Below are positions 4,799-6,682 of a stretch of DNA of 41,159 bases, one piece after another. The number at the start of each line of letters is the position of its first letter. The stretch's first letter is position 1. This DNA is from an uncultured Bacilli bacterium (lineage in GTDB: Bacteria; Bacillota_I; Bacilli_A; RF39; UBA660), in NCBI GenBank assembly GCA_944332025.1, contig CALVJB010000001.1:85629-126787 (forward strand). The letters are read 5' to 3'. Under the pieces are notes generated by a model. The model was not told the origin of the DNA. It made no database searches and saw only the letters and a program-made list of their open reading frames with translations. The translations under genes and the position numbers were made by a program.

Positions 4799-5008
4799 CT
4801 AATCTTTTTTATTAAAACCATATTTCTTATTAAACTTTTCTACTTGTCCTGCTTTAGATGCTCTTCCTTGTTTTCCTGTATAGAATGGATGACAATTTGA
4901 ACATACTTCAACTGTAAGTTCGTCTTTGTTAGACATAACTTCAAATGTAGCACCACAAGCACATGTTACTTTACATGGTCTATAGTTTGCTGGATTATTT
5001 TTTGCCAT
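4799..5008 (-). CDS. rpmE: 50S ribosomal protein L31
   Basis: A 69-residue zinc-type (C+) L31. It has the CACG motif near residue 16 and [13 protein letters not shown] near 35, giving the usual Cys ligands, followed by a basic tail. The start chosen is the ATG at 5006-5008, preceded by AAAGGAGAG. An upstream in-frame ATG would add 16 residues foreign to L31, so it is rejected. The leader has a promoter about 75 bases upstream and a short hairpin just before the RBS. In B. subtilis rpmE follows murA and rho; here the gap holds the two small-peptide units and an SGNH gene. Confidence 0.93.
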
Positions 5009-5028
5009 TTTTCTTCTCTCCTTTCGCC

Positions 5029-5047
5029 ATGATAATTTATTTATCAT
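5029..5047 (-). promoter_or_regulatory. Hairpin in rpmE leader
   Basis: A perfect 7-bp inverted repeat ATGATAA/TTATCAT with a 5-base loop sits in the rpmE 5' leader, about 10 bases before the Shine-Dalgarno. It could modulate initiation, but nothing else supports regulation. Confidence 0.35.
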
Positions 5048-5082
5048 AGAAATCATCCCTTAAAGGAACTAATTCGCTACTT

Positions 5083-5111
5083 AATATATCAAATTATTTA
5101 AAATTTGACAA
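5083..5111 (-). promoter_or_regulatory. rpmE promoter
   Basis: On the minus strand: -35 TTGTCA (5111-5106), 17-bp spacer, -10 TATATT (5088-5083). Transcription would start near 5075 and give a leader of about 65 bases before the chosen rpmE ATG. Confidence 0.6.
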
Positions 5112-5158
5112 GGTTTTTAATGGATTTTCATACCTAAAAATCAAAGCAAAAATGATAT

Positions 5159-5174
5159 TTACGAAAATTCGTAA
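5159..5174. promoter_or_regulatory. Palindrome TTACGAAAATTCGTAA upstream of peptide A
   Basis: 7-bp arms TTACGAA/TTCGTAA around AA, 21 bases upstream of the -35 box. The same 16 bases occur at the same place in unit B. It may be an operator or activator site. No regulator is known. Confidence 0.6.
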
Positions 5175-5195
5175 CTTTTTTATTACATTTTTTTC

Positions 5196-5224
5196 TTGTA
5201 CTAGAAGAAATAATATGATACTAT
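5196..5224 (+). promoter_or_regulatory. Promoter of peptide A
   Basis: -35 TTGTAC (5196-5201), 17-bp spacer, -10 TACTAT (5219-5224), preceded by a T-rich stretch. Transcription is expected near 5231, giving a leader of about 55 bases. Unit B has the same arrangement. Confidence 0.7.
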
Positions 5225-5285
5225 TAGCTTAGGAACATTTAGTAGTTGGGTGAAGCCAAACTCTATAAACGAGGGAGGTGTTAGA

Positions 5286-5369
5286 ATGAACAAGAAAGAT
5301 TTTTTAATTTTTTCTTTAGTAATTATAATCTTCCTTTTACTATTCTTACTGTTTATAGTATTAATATAA
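5286..5369 (+). CDS. 27-residue hydrophobic peptide, candidate type I toxin A
   Basis: The frame begins ATG AAC AAG AAA GAT with a GAGGGAGGTG Shine-Dalgarno six bases upstream and ends at TAA. The peptide has a charged start (MNKKDF) and then a single continuous hydrophobic helix (residues 6-27) made of Leu, Ile, Phe and Val. This is the size and shape of membrane-acting type I toxins. It has no similarity I recognise to Fst, TxpA or BsrG. The gene lies between a strong plus-strand promoter and a convergent minus-strand promoter, an arrangement repeated in unit B. The toxin role is inferred from architecture. Alternatives are a small membrane regulator or a leader peptide. Confidence 0.65.
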   Translation: MNKKDFLIFSLVIIIFLLLFLLFIVLI

Positions 5370-5483
5370 AAGAAAGTCACCTAACTCACAACGTGGATTA
5401 GGTGGTTTAACAATTATATGTTGGCTCACTCAACACGGAAATATTAAGTGTTCCTTTTACTATTGTATGAATTTTTTCTTACA
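5366..5483 (-). ncRNA. Candidate antisense (antitoxin) RNA A
   Basis: A minus-strand promoter (5489-5517) would start an RNA near 5483. It would run to a hairpin CACCTAA/TTAGGTG (5378-5384 and 5398-5404) followed on the minus strand by ACTTTCTTTTAT. The RNA, about 115 nt, would be complementary to the 3' untranslated part of the peptide A mRNA. No open frame with an RBS is seen on it. Confidence 0.5.
5432..5458 (+). terminator. Possible weak terminator of peptide A mRNA
   Basis: AACAC/GTGTT (5432-5436 and 5448-5452) followed by CCTTTT. It is only 5 bp and the T-run is short. It sits where unit B has a clear terminator. Confidence 0.35.
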
Positions 5484-5488
5484 TATAC

Positions 5489-5517
5489 ATCTTATCATAT
5501 AAGTATCTTTTGTGCAA
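5489..5517 (-). promoter_or_regulatory. Convergent promoter of antisense RNA A
   Basis: On the minus strand: -35 TTGCAC (5517-5512), 17-bp spacer, -10 TAAGAT (5494-5489). Unit B preserves the spacing and the -10 at the same place. Confidence 0.65.
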
Positions 5518-5576
5518 GTAGTGTTTTGCTATAAATGGTAGATTTTCACACTTAGAAATTAAATCTAAAGTAGCAT

Positions 5577-5592
5577 TTACGAAAATTCGTAA
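5577..5592. promoter_or_regulatory. Palindrome TTACGAAAATTCGTAA upstream of peptide B
   Basis: Identical 16-base palindrome to 5159-5174, 21 bases upstream of the unit B -35 box. It is one of the best conserved parts of the two units. Confidence 0.6.
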
Positions 5593-5613
5593 CTAATTTA
5601 TTACATTTTTATC

Positions 5614-5642
5614 TTGCTATCTAGAAGTCAATATGATACTAT
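5614..5642 (+). promoter_or_regulatory. Promoter of peptide B
   Basis: -35 TTGCTA (5614-5619), 17-bp spacer, -10 TACTAT (5637-5642). Transcription is expected near 5649. Confidence 0.7.
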
Positions 5643-5671
5643 TAACTTAGGAACATTTGATGTGAGTGTCG

Positions 5672-5696
5672 CCTCCATTCCATTAAGGAAAGGAGG
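5672..5696 (+). promoter_or_regulatory. Leader hairpin sequestering the peptide B ribosome binding site
   Basis: CCTCC (5672-5676) pairs with GGAGG (5692-5696) and TTCC (5678-5681) pairs with GGAA (5687-5690), around one A/A mismatch and a 5-base loop. The whole Shine-Dalgarno is in the 3' arm, so the nascent mRNA should be poorly translated unless remodelled. Confidence 0.6.
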
Positions 5697-5703
5697 AAAA
5701 GGT

Positions 5704-5799
5704 ATGAAGACAAAGACTTTTATCTTAAAAGTACTGAAGCTCATTCCTTCTATTTTGATTAGCCTTGCCTTCTTGGTACTAGTCTTAAAAATAGATTAG
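5704..5799 (+). CDS. 31-residue hydrophobic peptide, candidate type I toxin B
   Basis: ATG at 5704 with AAAGGAGG seven bases upstream and stop TAG. The peptide has a basic start (MKTKTFILKVLK) and one hydrophobic helix (about residues 13-28, PSILISLAFLVLVL) ending KID. It is not similar in sequence to peptide A, although both flanks of the gene are. Its RBS is folded into a hairpin. An antisense RNA is predicted over its 3' end, and a strong plus-strand terminator lies at 5835-5878. Inferred to be the toxin of a second type I pair; the toxic effect is unproven. Confidence 0.65.
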   Translation: MKTKTFILKVLKLIPSILISLAFLVLVLKID

Positions 5800-5901
5800 A
5801 CACTCTGCATAAGAGTGTCAACTATTCATTAATTATGAGGTGACATTCACTTGCAAAATCGAATGTTCCTCATTTTTTATTGTATGTAAATTTCTTTTTA
5901 C
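5788..5901 (-). ncRNA. Candidate antisense (antitoxin) RNA B
   Basis: Predicted to start near 5901 from the promoter at 5908-5936. It would end at the 8-bp hairpin GACACTCT/AGAGTGTC (5799-5806 and 5812-5819), followed on the minus strand by TAATCTATTTTT. At about 115 nt it equals antisense RNA A in length and overlaps the stop codon and 3' region of the peptide B mRNA. Confidence 0.5.
5835..5878 (+). terminator. Intrinsic terminator of peptide B mRNA
   Basis: ATGAGG/CCTCAT (5835-5840 and 5868-5873) and ACATTC/GAATGT (5843-5848 and 5861-5866) make a 12-bp stem with a small internal loop, followed by TTTTTT. Confidence 0.75.
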
Positions 5902-5907
5902 ATATAC

Positions 5908-5936
5908 ATCTTATCACATAAGTATCTTTTTAGCAA
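5908..5936 (-). promoter_or_regulatory. Convergent promoter of antisense RNA B
   Basis: On the minus strand: -35 TTGCTA (5936-5931), 17-bp spacer, -10 TAAGAT (5913-5908). It matches the unit A promoter in position and spacing. Confidence 0.65.
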
Positions 5937-5959
5937 GAGTGTTTTCACTAGAATTTAGT

Positions 5960-6682
5960 CTATAGATAATTCTCTATTATTTTTGTTGCAATCATTTGAT
6001 AGGCTTCTGTTGTTGGATATATGTTAGTAGGATTATCTATGTAATCTTTATTTTTCTTAAATAGATTATAAATATCTAAATATTCTATATCATAGGTTTT
6101 ACATAGATTTTTAGTCTTTGTTATTAGGTAAGTATAGAGTCTTTCTGCGGTGAGTGTTTCTTCTTCTAAATGATTATAAAAACCTATAAAGATTATATCT
6201 TTTTTAGCATATTTCCTTAATTCTTTAAAAAGAGAATCTAACTCATTTACTGTTTTATCTACTATTGTAGTTATTTCTTTGTTAGATAGATTTTCCACAG
6301 ATACTGTGGATAAAGTTAATTCTGTTAAGATATCATCCATTCCTACTGATAAAGTTACTAATTCAGCTTCACGAAGACATTTTTTTAAAGATAAAGATTT
6401 ACCATCTTTTTTTATAGTCCAGTTTGTTTCAAGTTTATTTTTTAAATCTATTATTCTAGTACCACTTGTAGAAAAATAGTTATTGTAACTTTTTAATAAA
6501 TCTTTATCTTTAAGATAGTTGGCAAGATAATTACTATAACCATAGTTTGTATTACCATTAGAGTCTATTCCGACACTTAAAGAGTCTCCTATTGATACAT
6601 AAGTTATTTTATCTGTATGATTAAAGTAATAAATTGCATAAACTAAAAGACATATGATTAAAAGACATAATATTTTTTTCAT
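5960..6682 (-). CDS. Membrane-anchored SGNH/GDSL hydrolase-like protein with degenerate active site
   Basis: A 240-residue protein with one N-terminal membrane segment (residues 3-20, ILCLLIICLLVYAIYYF) and an extracellular SGNH-fold domain. Block I is YVSIGDSLSVG with the nucleophile Ser. Block II Gly may be in YFSTSGTRI. Block III, normally GGND, reads SVGMDDIL, so the oxyanion Asn is Asp. Block V, normally DxxHP, reads TNIYPTTEAY, so the catalytic His is Tyr and the Asp is missing. The fold resembles lipase-like YpmR proteins, but activity is doubtful. The start ATG follows GGAGGTAAAA; an upstream TTG would overlap the RBS. The gene is separated from murA by a terminator. The next genes downstream are the small-peptide units. 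Confidence 0.7.
   Translation of the reverse strand: MKKILCLLIICLLVYAIYYFNHTDKITYVSIGDSLSVGIDSNGNTNYGYSNYLANYLKDKDLLKSYNNYFSTSGTRIIDLKNKLETNWTIKKDGKSLSLKKCLREAELVTLSVGMDDILTELTLSTVSVENLSNKEITTIVDKTVNELDSLFKELRKYAKKDIIFIGFYNHLEEETLTAERLYTYLITKTKNLCKTYDIEYLDIYNLFKKNKDYIDNPTNIYPTTEAYQMIATKIIENYL

Follow-up and report, generated by a model that had tools for sequence, protein, structure and literature searches.

In a 41,159-nucleotide stretch of DNA from the genome assembly of an uncultured Bacilli bacterium (GCA_944332025.1, contig CALVJB010000001.1, positions 85,629 to 126,787 of the forward strand; hereafter the window), two tandem units at positions 5121–5945 each combine a gene for a short hydrophobic peptide with a predicted convergent antisense RNA. 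With good confidence, we regard each unit as a type I-like toxin–antitoxin module of an apparently undescribed family that has expanded on the chromosomes of uncultured Bacilli. The family is very probably real, selected, multicopy and type I-like; the mechanism by which it would switch translation of the peptide is a prediction from computed folds.

An earlier note on this DNA, made from the letters of the window, had proposed a type I layout for both units. Our data support this proposal on evolutionary grounds and not on the layout alone, as the family displays coding selection on the peptide, covariation between the leader and the 3′ arm of the messenger RNA (mRNA), a strand bias in G-U pairs, covariation in an antisense hairpin and conserved convergent promoters.

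Architecture of the two units

The two units are related by three direct repeats (5123–5198/5541–5616, 83% identity; 5212–5240/5630–5658, 97%; 5455–5518/5874–5937, 81%). A letter-by-letter check found the repeats, the four promoters with 17-bp spacers and both open reading frames (ORFs) where the earlier note had placed them. We add to its description a palindrome, TTACGAAAATTCGTAA, upstream of each unit, pairing between the 5′ and 3′ ends of the mRNA, a hairpin on the Shine–Dalgarno sequence (SD) and over 20 additional copies elsewhere in the genome. The features of the two units are listed below.

5159–5174, unit 1, upstream of the sense promoter: palindrome TTACGAAAATTCGTAA, candidate operator (sequence)
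5196–5224, plus strand: unit 1 sense promoter TTGTAC-17-TACTAT, predicted start near 5231 (consensus match 7/12)
5231–5258, plus strand: unit 1 mRNA 5′ arm, partner of the 3′ arm (fold; duplex −34.5 kcal/mol)
5273–5278, plus strand: unit 1 SD, GGGAGG (sequence)
5286–5369, plus strand: unit 1 toxin candidate of 27 residues, MNKKDFLIFSLVIIIFLLLFLLFIVLI (purifying selection on its type)
5420–5455, plus strand: unit 1 mRNA 3′ arm (fold, duplex)
5365–5482, minus strand: unit 1 antisense RNA of about 118 nt, antitoxin candidate (fold, aligned family)
5489–5517, minus strand: unit 1 antisense promoter TTGCAC-17-TAAGAT (consensus match 7/12; aligned family, family statistics)
5577–5592, unit 2, upstream: palindrome TTACGAAAATTCGTAA, candidate operator (sequence)
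5614–5642, plus strand: unit 2 sense promoter TTGCTA-17-TACTAT, predicted start near 5649 (consensus match 8/12)
5649–5676, plus strand: unit 2 mRNA 5′ arm, its 3′ end being the anti-SD GCCTCC at 5671–5676 (duplex −39.9 kcal/mol)
5671–5696, plus strand: unit 2 hairpin closing the SD AAGGAGG at 5690–5696 (predicted fold)
5704–5799, plus strand: unit 2 toxin candidate of 31 residues, MKTKTFILKVLKLIPSILISLAFLVLVLKID (purifying selection on its type, 7 distinct sequences)
5837–5871, plus strand: unit 2 mRNA 3′ arm, followed by T6, the probable sense terminator (fold, duplex, sequence)
5790–5901, minus strand: unit 2 antisense RNA of about 112 nt, antitoxin candidate, with a terminator-like hairpin at its 3′ end, 5819–5799 (fold, aligned family)
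5908–5936, minus strand: unit 2 antisense promoter TTGCTA-17-TAAGAT (consensus match 8/12; aligned family, family statistics)

Copies and taxonomic range

A DNA search of the assembly that holds the window (1.59 Mb in 101 contigs) returned 45 matches at E ≤ 1, many covering only half a unit. A profile built from the DNA matches and run on the stretches fetched from this genome resolved 21 complete units and 2 partial ones, and an RNA model adds a putative locus at C32:9620 (by that model only), which brings the total to at least 24 loci. The two tandem modules of the earlier note are thus both present, although their number understated the content of the genome.

The 21-base piece at the transcript start matches at least 112 stretches in GTDB genomes. 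The 80 matches listed come from metagenome-assembled genomes with titles naming uncultured Bacilli, Tenericutes or Candidatus Onthousia; a few titles read Firmicutes, Bacillota, Clostridium, Clostridia, Mycoplasma or simply bacterium. The profile recognizes units in 111 of the 112 loci, 129 of them complete, and none in shuffled loci. The statistics below use 116 complete units (115 distinct) from loci L066–L145, the window's own genome and genome G187, partial units having been dropped; units of genome G054 that were fetched by place were excluded, and two G054 contigs re-enter as L069 and L130.

An RNA model of the 5′ part of the antisense RNA (R2; 106 positions, built on 76 units, its central hairpin being defined manually) matched 173 of the 243 sampled genomes of the host taxonomic family, in 110 of 148 genera. 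R2 also matched 214 of 288 genomes in a sample of the order, where all the matches listed belong to the host family, 26 of 296 in a sample of the class (25 from the host family, the window's own genome included, and G544) and 2 of 195 in a sample of the phylum, both from the host family; since the model was built from members of that family and applied with strict filters, distant relatives could be missed. The G544 copy (L214), from another family, is intact by the profile and by eye and is the sole one found outside the host family; it represents either a transfer or a misbinned contig. By eye, it adjoins an XRE-like gene.

An exact-pattern search did not match the family in viral contigs, and blastn matched neither unit 1 in phages nor unit 2 in plasmids; a phage or plasmid origin was rejected on these results.

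Purifying selection on the peptides

Two main peptide forms recur, type A (MNKKDFLI...) and type B (MKTKTFILK...), besides others such as MRKTEKYL.... The peptides picked automatically in the window's own genome span 22–33 residues, as a lone 16-residue pick at C16 has an upstream ATG that extends it to 22, and an SD-like stretch precedes the start codon of the family peptides. Among 47 distinct ORFs of 27 residues, taken without choice by motif and compared over codons 6–27, codons 1–5 being left out, the ratio of non-synonymous to synonymous polymorphism (pN/pS) is 0.41 in frame versus 0.72 and 2.56 in the other frames. The seven distinct type B ORFs give 0.36 versus 0.73 and 4.49, and a set picked by the motif M.KKD, which fixes codons 3–5, gives 0.34. 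Leucines L7, L11, L21 and L22 are invariant in 45 type A sequences, in which K3, K4 and D5 are fixed by the choice of sequences. Judging from these sequences, a small hydrophobic peptide of fewer than 60 residues appears really to be translated.

The earlier note found no recognized family here, and this holds for the DNA in Rfam and for eight representative peptides in Pfam, NCBIfam and PHROGs (PADLOC was left out), where no family came near its cut-off. The lowest E value in these libraries was 0.023, for a serine palmitoyltransferase subunit, and the nearest toxin name was HokA for the window's peptide 1 (E 0.2, 11.7 bits against a cut-off of 89); none of the eight belongs by sequence to a named type I toxin family (TxpA/BsrG, Hok or others) among the curated families. 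Nor did the available text of the literature searched, a scope outside which subscription papers and preprints lie, yield an account of the peptide or RNA family.

Pairing of the mRNA ends and access to the Shine–Dalgarno sequence

The predicted mRNAs of the window fold far better than shuffled sequences (z −4.8 for unit 1 and −8.2 for unit 2), and the predicted folds pair their first ~30 nt with the 3′ arm. The same 5′–3′ pairing is predicted in most other complete units; in C15, C16, C19, C6 and G054_C48 the rule defining the mRNA end stopped at an internal T-run and cut off the 3′ arm. Cognate duplexes between leader and 3′ arm average −33.1 kcal/mol versus −27.5 kcal/mol (standard deviation (s.d.) 0.28) over 2000 permutations, and the 34 units with variant leaders show −32.5 kcal/mol with cognate arms versus −22.6 kcal/mol (s.d. 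0.89) with permuted ones. Across the 115 units, the sense strand carries 116 G-U versus 3 A-C oppositions in the outer helix and 125 versus 18 in the inner helix, counted from ungapped blocks chosen with equal weight for G-U and A-C. This excess of G-U on the sense strand means that selection acts on the sense RNA, beyond a mere inverted repeat in the DNA.

The predicted leader fold joins three or more bases of the SD to a 12-nt segment just 3′ of the inner helix in 73 of 107 units. This anti-SD segment also pairs better with the 3′ arm of its own unit than with the arms of others (−6.1 versus −4.2, s.d. 0.17, 107 units; placement of the segments was automatic, which left a few of them off position). 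It thus has two conserved, mutually exclusive partners, the SD and the cognate 3′ arm.

Over 104 units with four draws each, the computed cost of opening the whole SD amounts to 4.9 kcal/mol with a unit's own 3′ untranslated region (UTR), 6.3 with those of other units, 7.2 with a shuffled one and 7.1 when no 3′ UTR is present, and the own 3′ UTR gives a lower cost than the others' in 89 of the 104. When the 3′ arm is masked to mimic binding of the antisense RNA, the cost climbs from 4.86 to 7.53 kcal/mol; a free arm eases opening of the SD by more than 0.5 in 91 of 103 units and makes it harder in 4.

The predicted antisense RNA

Both predicted antisense RNAs of the window fold far better than shuffled sequences (z −4.9 each). 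The stem of the 5′ hairpin is kept by eye while its sequence changes, and a central 8-bp hairpin is paired in 93.7% of the cells examined, the pairing being abolished when the partner is slid. This central hairpin has 31 cells with two-sided changes versus 7.1 ± 5.5 in shuffles, a comparison to be read knowing that related sequences can exceed such shuffles even without structure. The computed cognate duplexes of the window units (−175 and −161 kcal/mol) far exceed the cross pairs (−38 and −34 kcal/mol). Unit 2 has a terminator-like site at 5819–5799 on the minus strand, at the end of the predicted antisense RNA; the T-run of unit 1 is weak and not listed by the scan. A first covariance model, R1, contained only 7 pairs and was discarded in favour of R2.

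Rfam identified no antitoxin or mRNA family over the window, and a search of positions 5000–6000 at E up to 5 returned only a ribosomal protein leader and three matches far below their thresholds. This leader, L31-Firmicutes, lies at 5018–5049 on the minus strand before rpmE and is the sole match in the window at the gathering threshold.

Predicted promoters and candidate operators

A simple promoter scan of this AT-rich stretch performs at chance level (11 found versus 11.6 expected), and a single locus therefore provides no proof of promoters; conservation is the real test. Over 114 related units, the top hit where a promoter is expected scores at least 8/12 at 93% of sense and 93% of antisense positions; in length-matched random AT-rich windows (n = 2,892) the proportions are 30% and 45%. 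At 9/12 or better, the figures are 51% versus 10% for the sense and 82.5% versus 16% for the antisense promoter. The conservation is also visible by eye in the aligned upstream and downstream sequences of the family. In the window, the best hits of the automatic scorer reach 8/12 each, in registers other than those of the hexamers listed above.

Many of the sense promoters in relatives carry a LexA box. Exact GAAC-N4-GTT occurs upstream of lexA in 14 of 30 host-family loci, and a version with at most three mismatches in 29 of 30; we take these boxes to be of the Firmicute kind. In L188, L194, L195 and L200 a wrong start call led to a longer stretch being scanned, with boxes at about −1750, and the region available upstream of lexA in L196 is 25 nt only. 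The lexA gene of the window's own genome has CGAACACTTGTTTA and CGAAGATTTGTTTG upstream. Scoring with the boxes found upstream of lexA and requiring a value above the 99% level of 15,720 random windows, we detected LexA boxes in 30 of the 71 toxin promoters that have no palindrome. All 30 are in relatives, and in 28 the box sits within the promoter spacer, at −25 to −27. A LexA box in the window's own promoters was rejected, as none of the 43 palindrome-bearing promoters scored positive (one of the 43, L107_165, probably has a chance palindrome), and the palindrome itself was rejected as a LexA box (score −28.9).

In G000, G054 and G187, units with the palindrome have it 53–58 bp upstream of their start-site proxy. 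It is present in 8 of 9 sampled genomes of the window's genus, with 0–1 control hits per strand, and a stricter pattern that adds the downstream spacer matches 3 of 243 host-family genomes, all in that genus. In the window's own genome it also precedes a dinD gene (an NCBIfam equivalog, 343.8 bits against a cut-off of 242), an ORF6N gene and an XRE gene.

At the dinD locus (L033, G000:C51), the gene spans 128–967 and the palindrome 1076–1091. The palindrome with a near-identical promoter stands before dinD in L033 and before a toxin unit in G054 (C9:21551); from these sequences it looks as if toxin unit and dinD had swapped places behind one promoter. A perfect 16-bp palindrome precedes a small XRE regulator in L029 (G000:C77, 537–552), and G638 and G642 likewise have close XRE homologues that lie near the palindrome. 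We did not find support for the C77 XRE gene as master regulator, because close homologues were found in only 5 of 9 genus genomes and none in G054, which is rich in palindrome-bearing toxins. In L026 (G000:C34, 1478–1540), two palindromes 47 bp apart separate an ORF6N gene from what is presumably an acetate kinase-like gene, and palindromes paired with the same spacing exist in G054, G638 and G642. A second promoter class of the window's own genome, without the palindrome (L013, L019, L020, L021 and L022), shares a TGTTCG-NTTG-TTTTA-like stretch near −35, which is not a LexA box by score.

Proposed mechanism and alternative explanations

We infer that the plus strand is transcribed into an mRNA encoding a short peptide that would act at the membrane, presumably as a toxin. 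On the finished mRNA, the 3′ arm would pair with the first ~30 nt and compete for the anti-SD strand, making the SD easier to open. The antisense RNA of ~115 nt, being complementary to the 3′ arm, would hold the arm off the leader and let the SD hairpin close, which would neutralize the toxin; the duplex of antisense RNA and 3′ arm would probably be cleaved by an RNase as well. Stress control would act at the sense promoter, through LexA in many relatives and a palindrome-binding factor in the window's genus. Beyond this scheme we put forward, tentatively and with somewhat less than even confidence, a lineage-wide type I family with inverted long-distance logic. Its 3′ arm would serve as an anti-anti-SD and allow translation only once the transcript is complete, the antisense RNA would compete for this arm, and one RNA chassis would carry several unrelated-looking peptides, coupled to LexA in part of the genera and elsewhere to another stress palindrome.

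Several observations weigh against the type I reading or the predicted switch. Three of the 116 units lack a picked peptide and a few further picks are doubtful; some copies look decayed, as is probably the case, from its sequence, of L017 (G000:C11:12162), a near-copy of window unit 1 with the start codon ATA instead of ATG. Contrary to the cost of opening the whole SD, which is lower with the arm free, the mean per-base openness of the SD points the other way (full mRNA 0.18, 3′ arm masked 0.28), so that most of the SD is paired whether or not the arm is available. Window unit 1 is unaffected by masking (4.74 versus 4.75), its opening cost responding only to removal of the 3′ UTR (6.38). Two of five measures on the central antisense hairpin do not go beyond shuffles (66 of 500 shuffles reach the observed number of pairs with two-sided change and 93 of 500 the number of pair types, neither being significant alone), and RNAalifold found only 7 pairs in the first antisense alignment. 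Finally, the LexA box is absent from every palindrome-bearing promoter, those of the window units included.

An alternative to the predicted direction of the switch is the logic of hok and AapA, in which 5′–3′ pairing keeps the full-length type I mRNA inert until 3′ trimming activates it. The pairing is indeed strong, every one of the 115 units having a cognate duplex at or below −19.9 kcal/mol; full-length folds leave little of the SD free (0.18 unpaired), and the aapA mRNAs of Helicobacter pylori operate in this manner (PMC6733600). The 3′ anti-SD of aapA, however, pairs with the SD itself in that account, whereas the 3′ arm described here pairs with the anti-SD strand, and opening the SD is costlier without the 3′ part, the own 3′ UTR being cheaper than none in 94 of 104 units. 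We consider this explanation unlikely. A miniature inverted-repeat mobile element, with the complementary ends as terminal repeats and the peptide incidental, would account for the many dispersed copies, the tandem copies and the inverted-repeat ends ~220 bp apart, but not for the bias between the arms of 116 G-U to 3 A-C, which is not expected of repeats maintained at the DNA level, nor for purifying selection on the peptide or conservation of promoters beyond the arms; it is already disfavoured and we regard it as highly improbable.

The units could also encode a damage-induced small membrane regulator, for instance of division or membrane potential, under antisense-RNA control and with neither addiction nor a lethal toxin. 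The LexA boxes in relatives, the palindrome before dinD and the lack of matches in viral contigs, phages and plasmids in the searches above are in line with this explanation. High copy number and decaying copies are, however, more usual for toxin families, and such hydrophobic peptides are usually toxic on overexpression; we view it as doubtful, and favour a type I-like toxin–antitoxin module.

If the type I reading is true, small-genome uncultured gut Bacilli devote more than 20 loci to RNA-controlled membrane peptides, to our knowledge an unusual density of type I modules. The 115 distinct units provide covariation strong enough for testing how an antisense RNA switches toxin translation, and the change of operator between groups, LexA box versus palindrome, offers a natural experiment on how such modules are tied to DNA damage. 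With the RNA model and consensus peptides, loci that the libraries searched here leave unnamed could be annotated.

Comparison with known type I systems

The earlier note had likened the units to TxpA/RatA and BsrG/SR4. The former comparison applies to the overlap at the 3′ region and to nothing further, whereas the latter is apt. The antisense RNA of bsrG/SR4 from Bacillus subtilis likewise covers the mRNA 3′ region, and SR4 binding lengthens the SD-closing stem from 4 to 8 bp (PMC6562991), the same direction as predicted for the present family, in which antisense binding would favour SD closure. The family differs by its two dozen chromosomal copies, its control by a LexA box or a palindrome operator and the lack of a library match for its eight representative peptides. 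At 22–33 residues in the window's own genome, its peptides compare with 28–60 residues for B. subtilis type I toxins (PMC6563280).

The Clostridioides difficile modules CD2517.1-RCd8, CD2907.1-RCd9 and CD0956.2-RCd10 share with the family a convergent type I organization, several copies per genome and toxins unrelated to other families (PMC6563280). Their toxins of 50–53 residues are longer, their promoters are SigB-linked, in contrast with LexA or palindrome control here, and the modules of that species are associated with CRISPR arrays or prophages (PMC6563280). Escherichia coli possesses the SOS-inducible type I modules tisB/istR-1, dinQ/agrB and symE/symR (PMC6563280), which the LexA boxes in 30 of 71 palindrome-free promoters recall, although the lineage is another and the window units have no LexA box.

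The aapA/IsoA modules of H. pylori combine several chromosomal copies, a 5′–3′ long-distance interaction and leader hairpins that close the SD (PMC6733600), and all three traits recur here, the 5′–3′ pairing being indicated by predicted folds and covariation. Sequestration of the SD by the 3′ end is not predicted here, as the cognate 3′ UTR lowers the computed cost of opening the SD. In aapA an anti-SD located at the 3′ end binds the SD, whereas in the present family the 3′ arm pairs with the anti-SD strand, so that its predicted effect is the opposite of that in aapA/IsoA.

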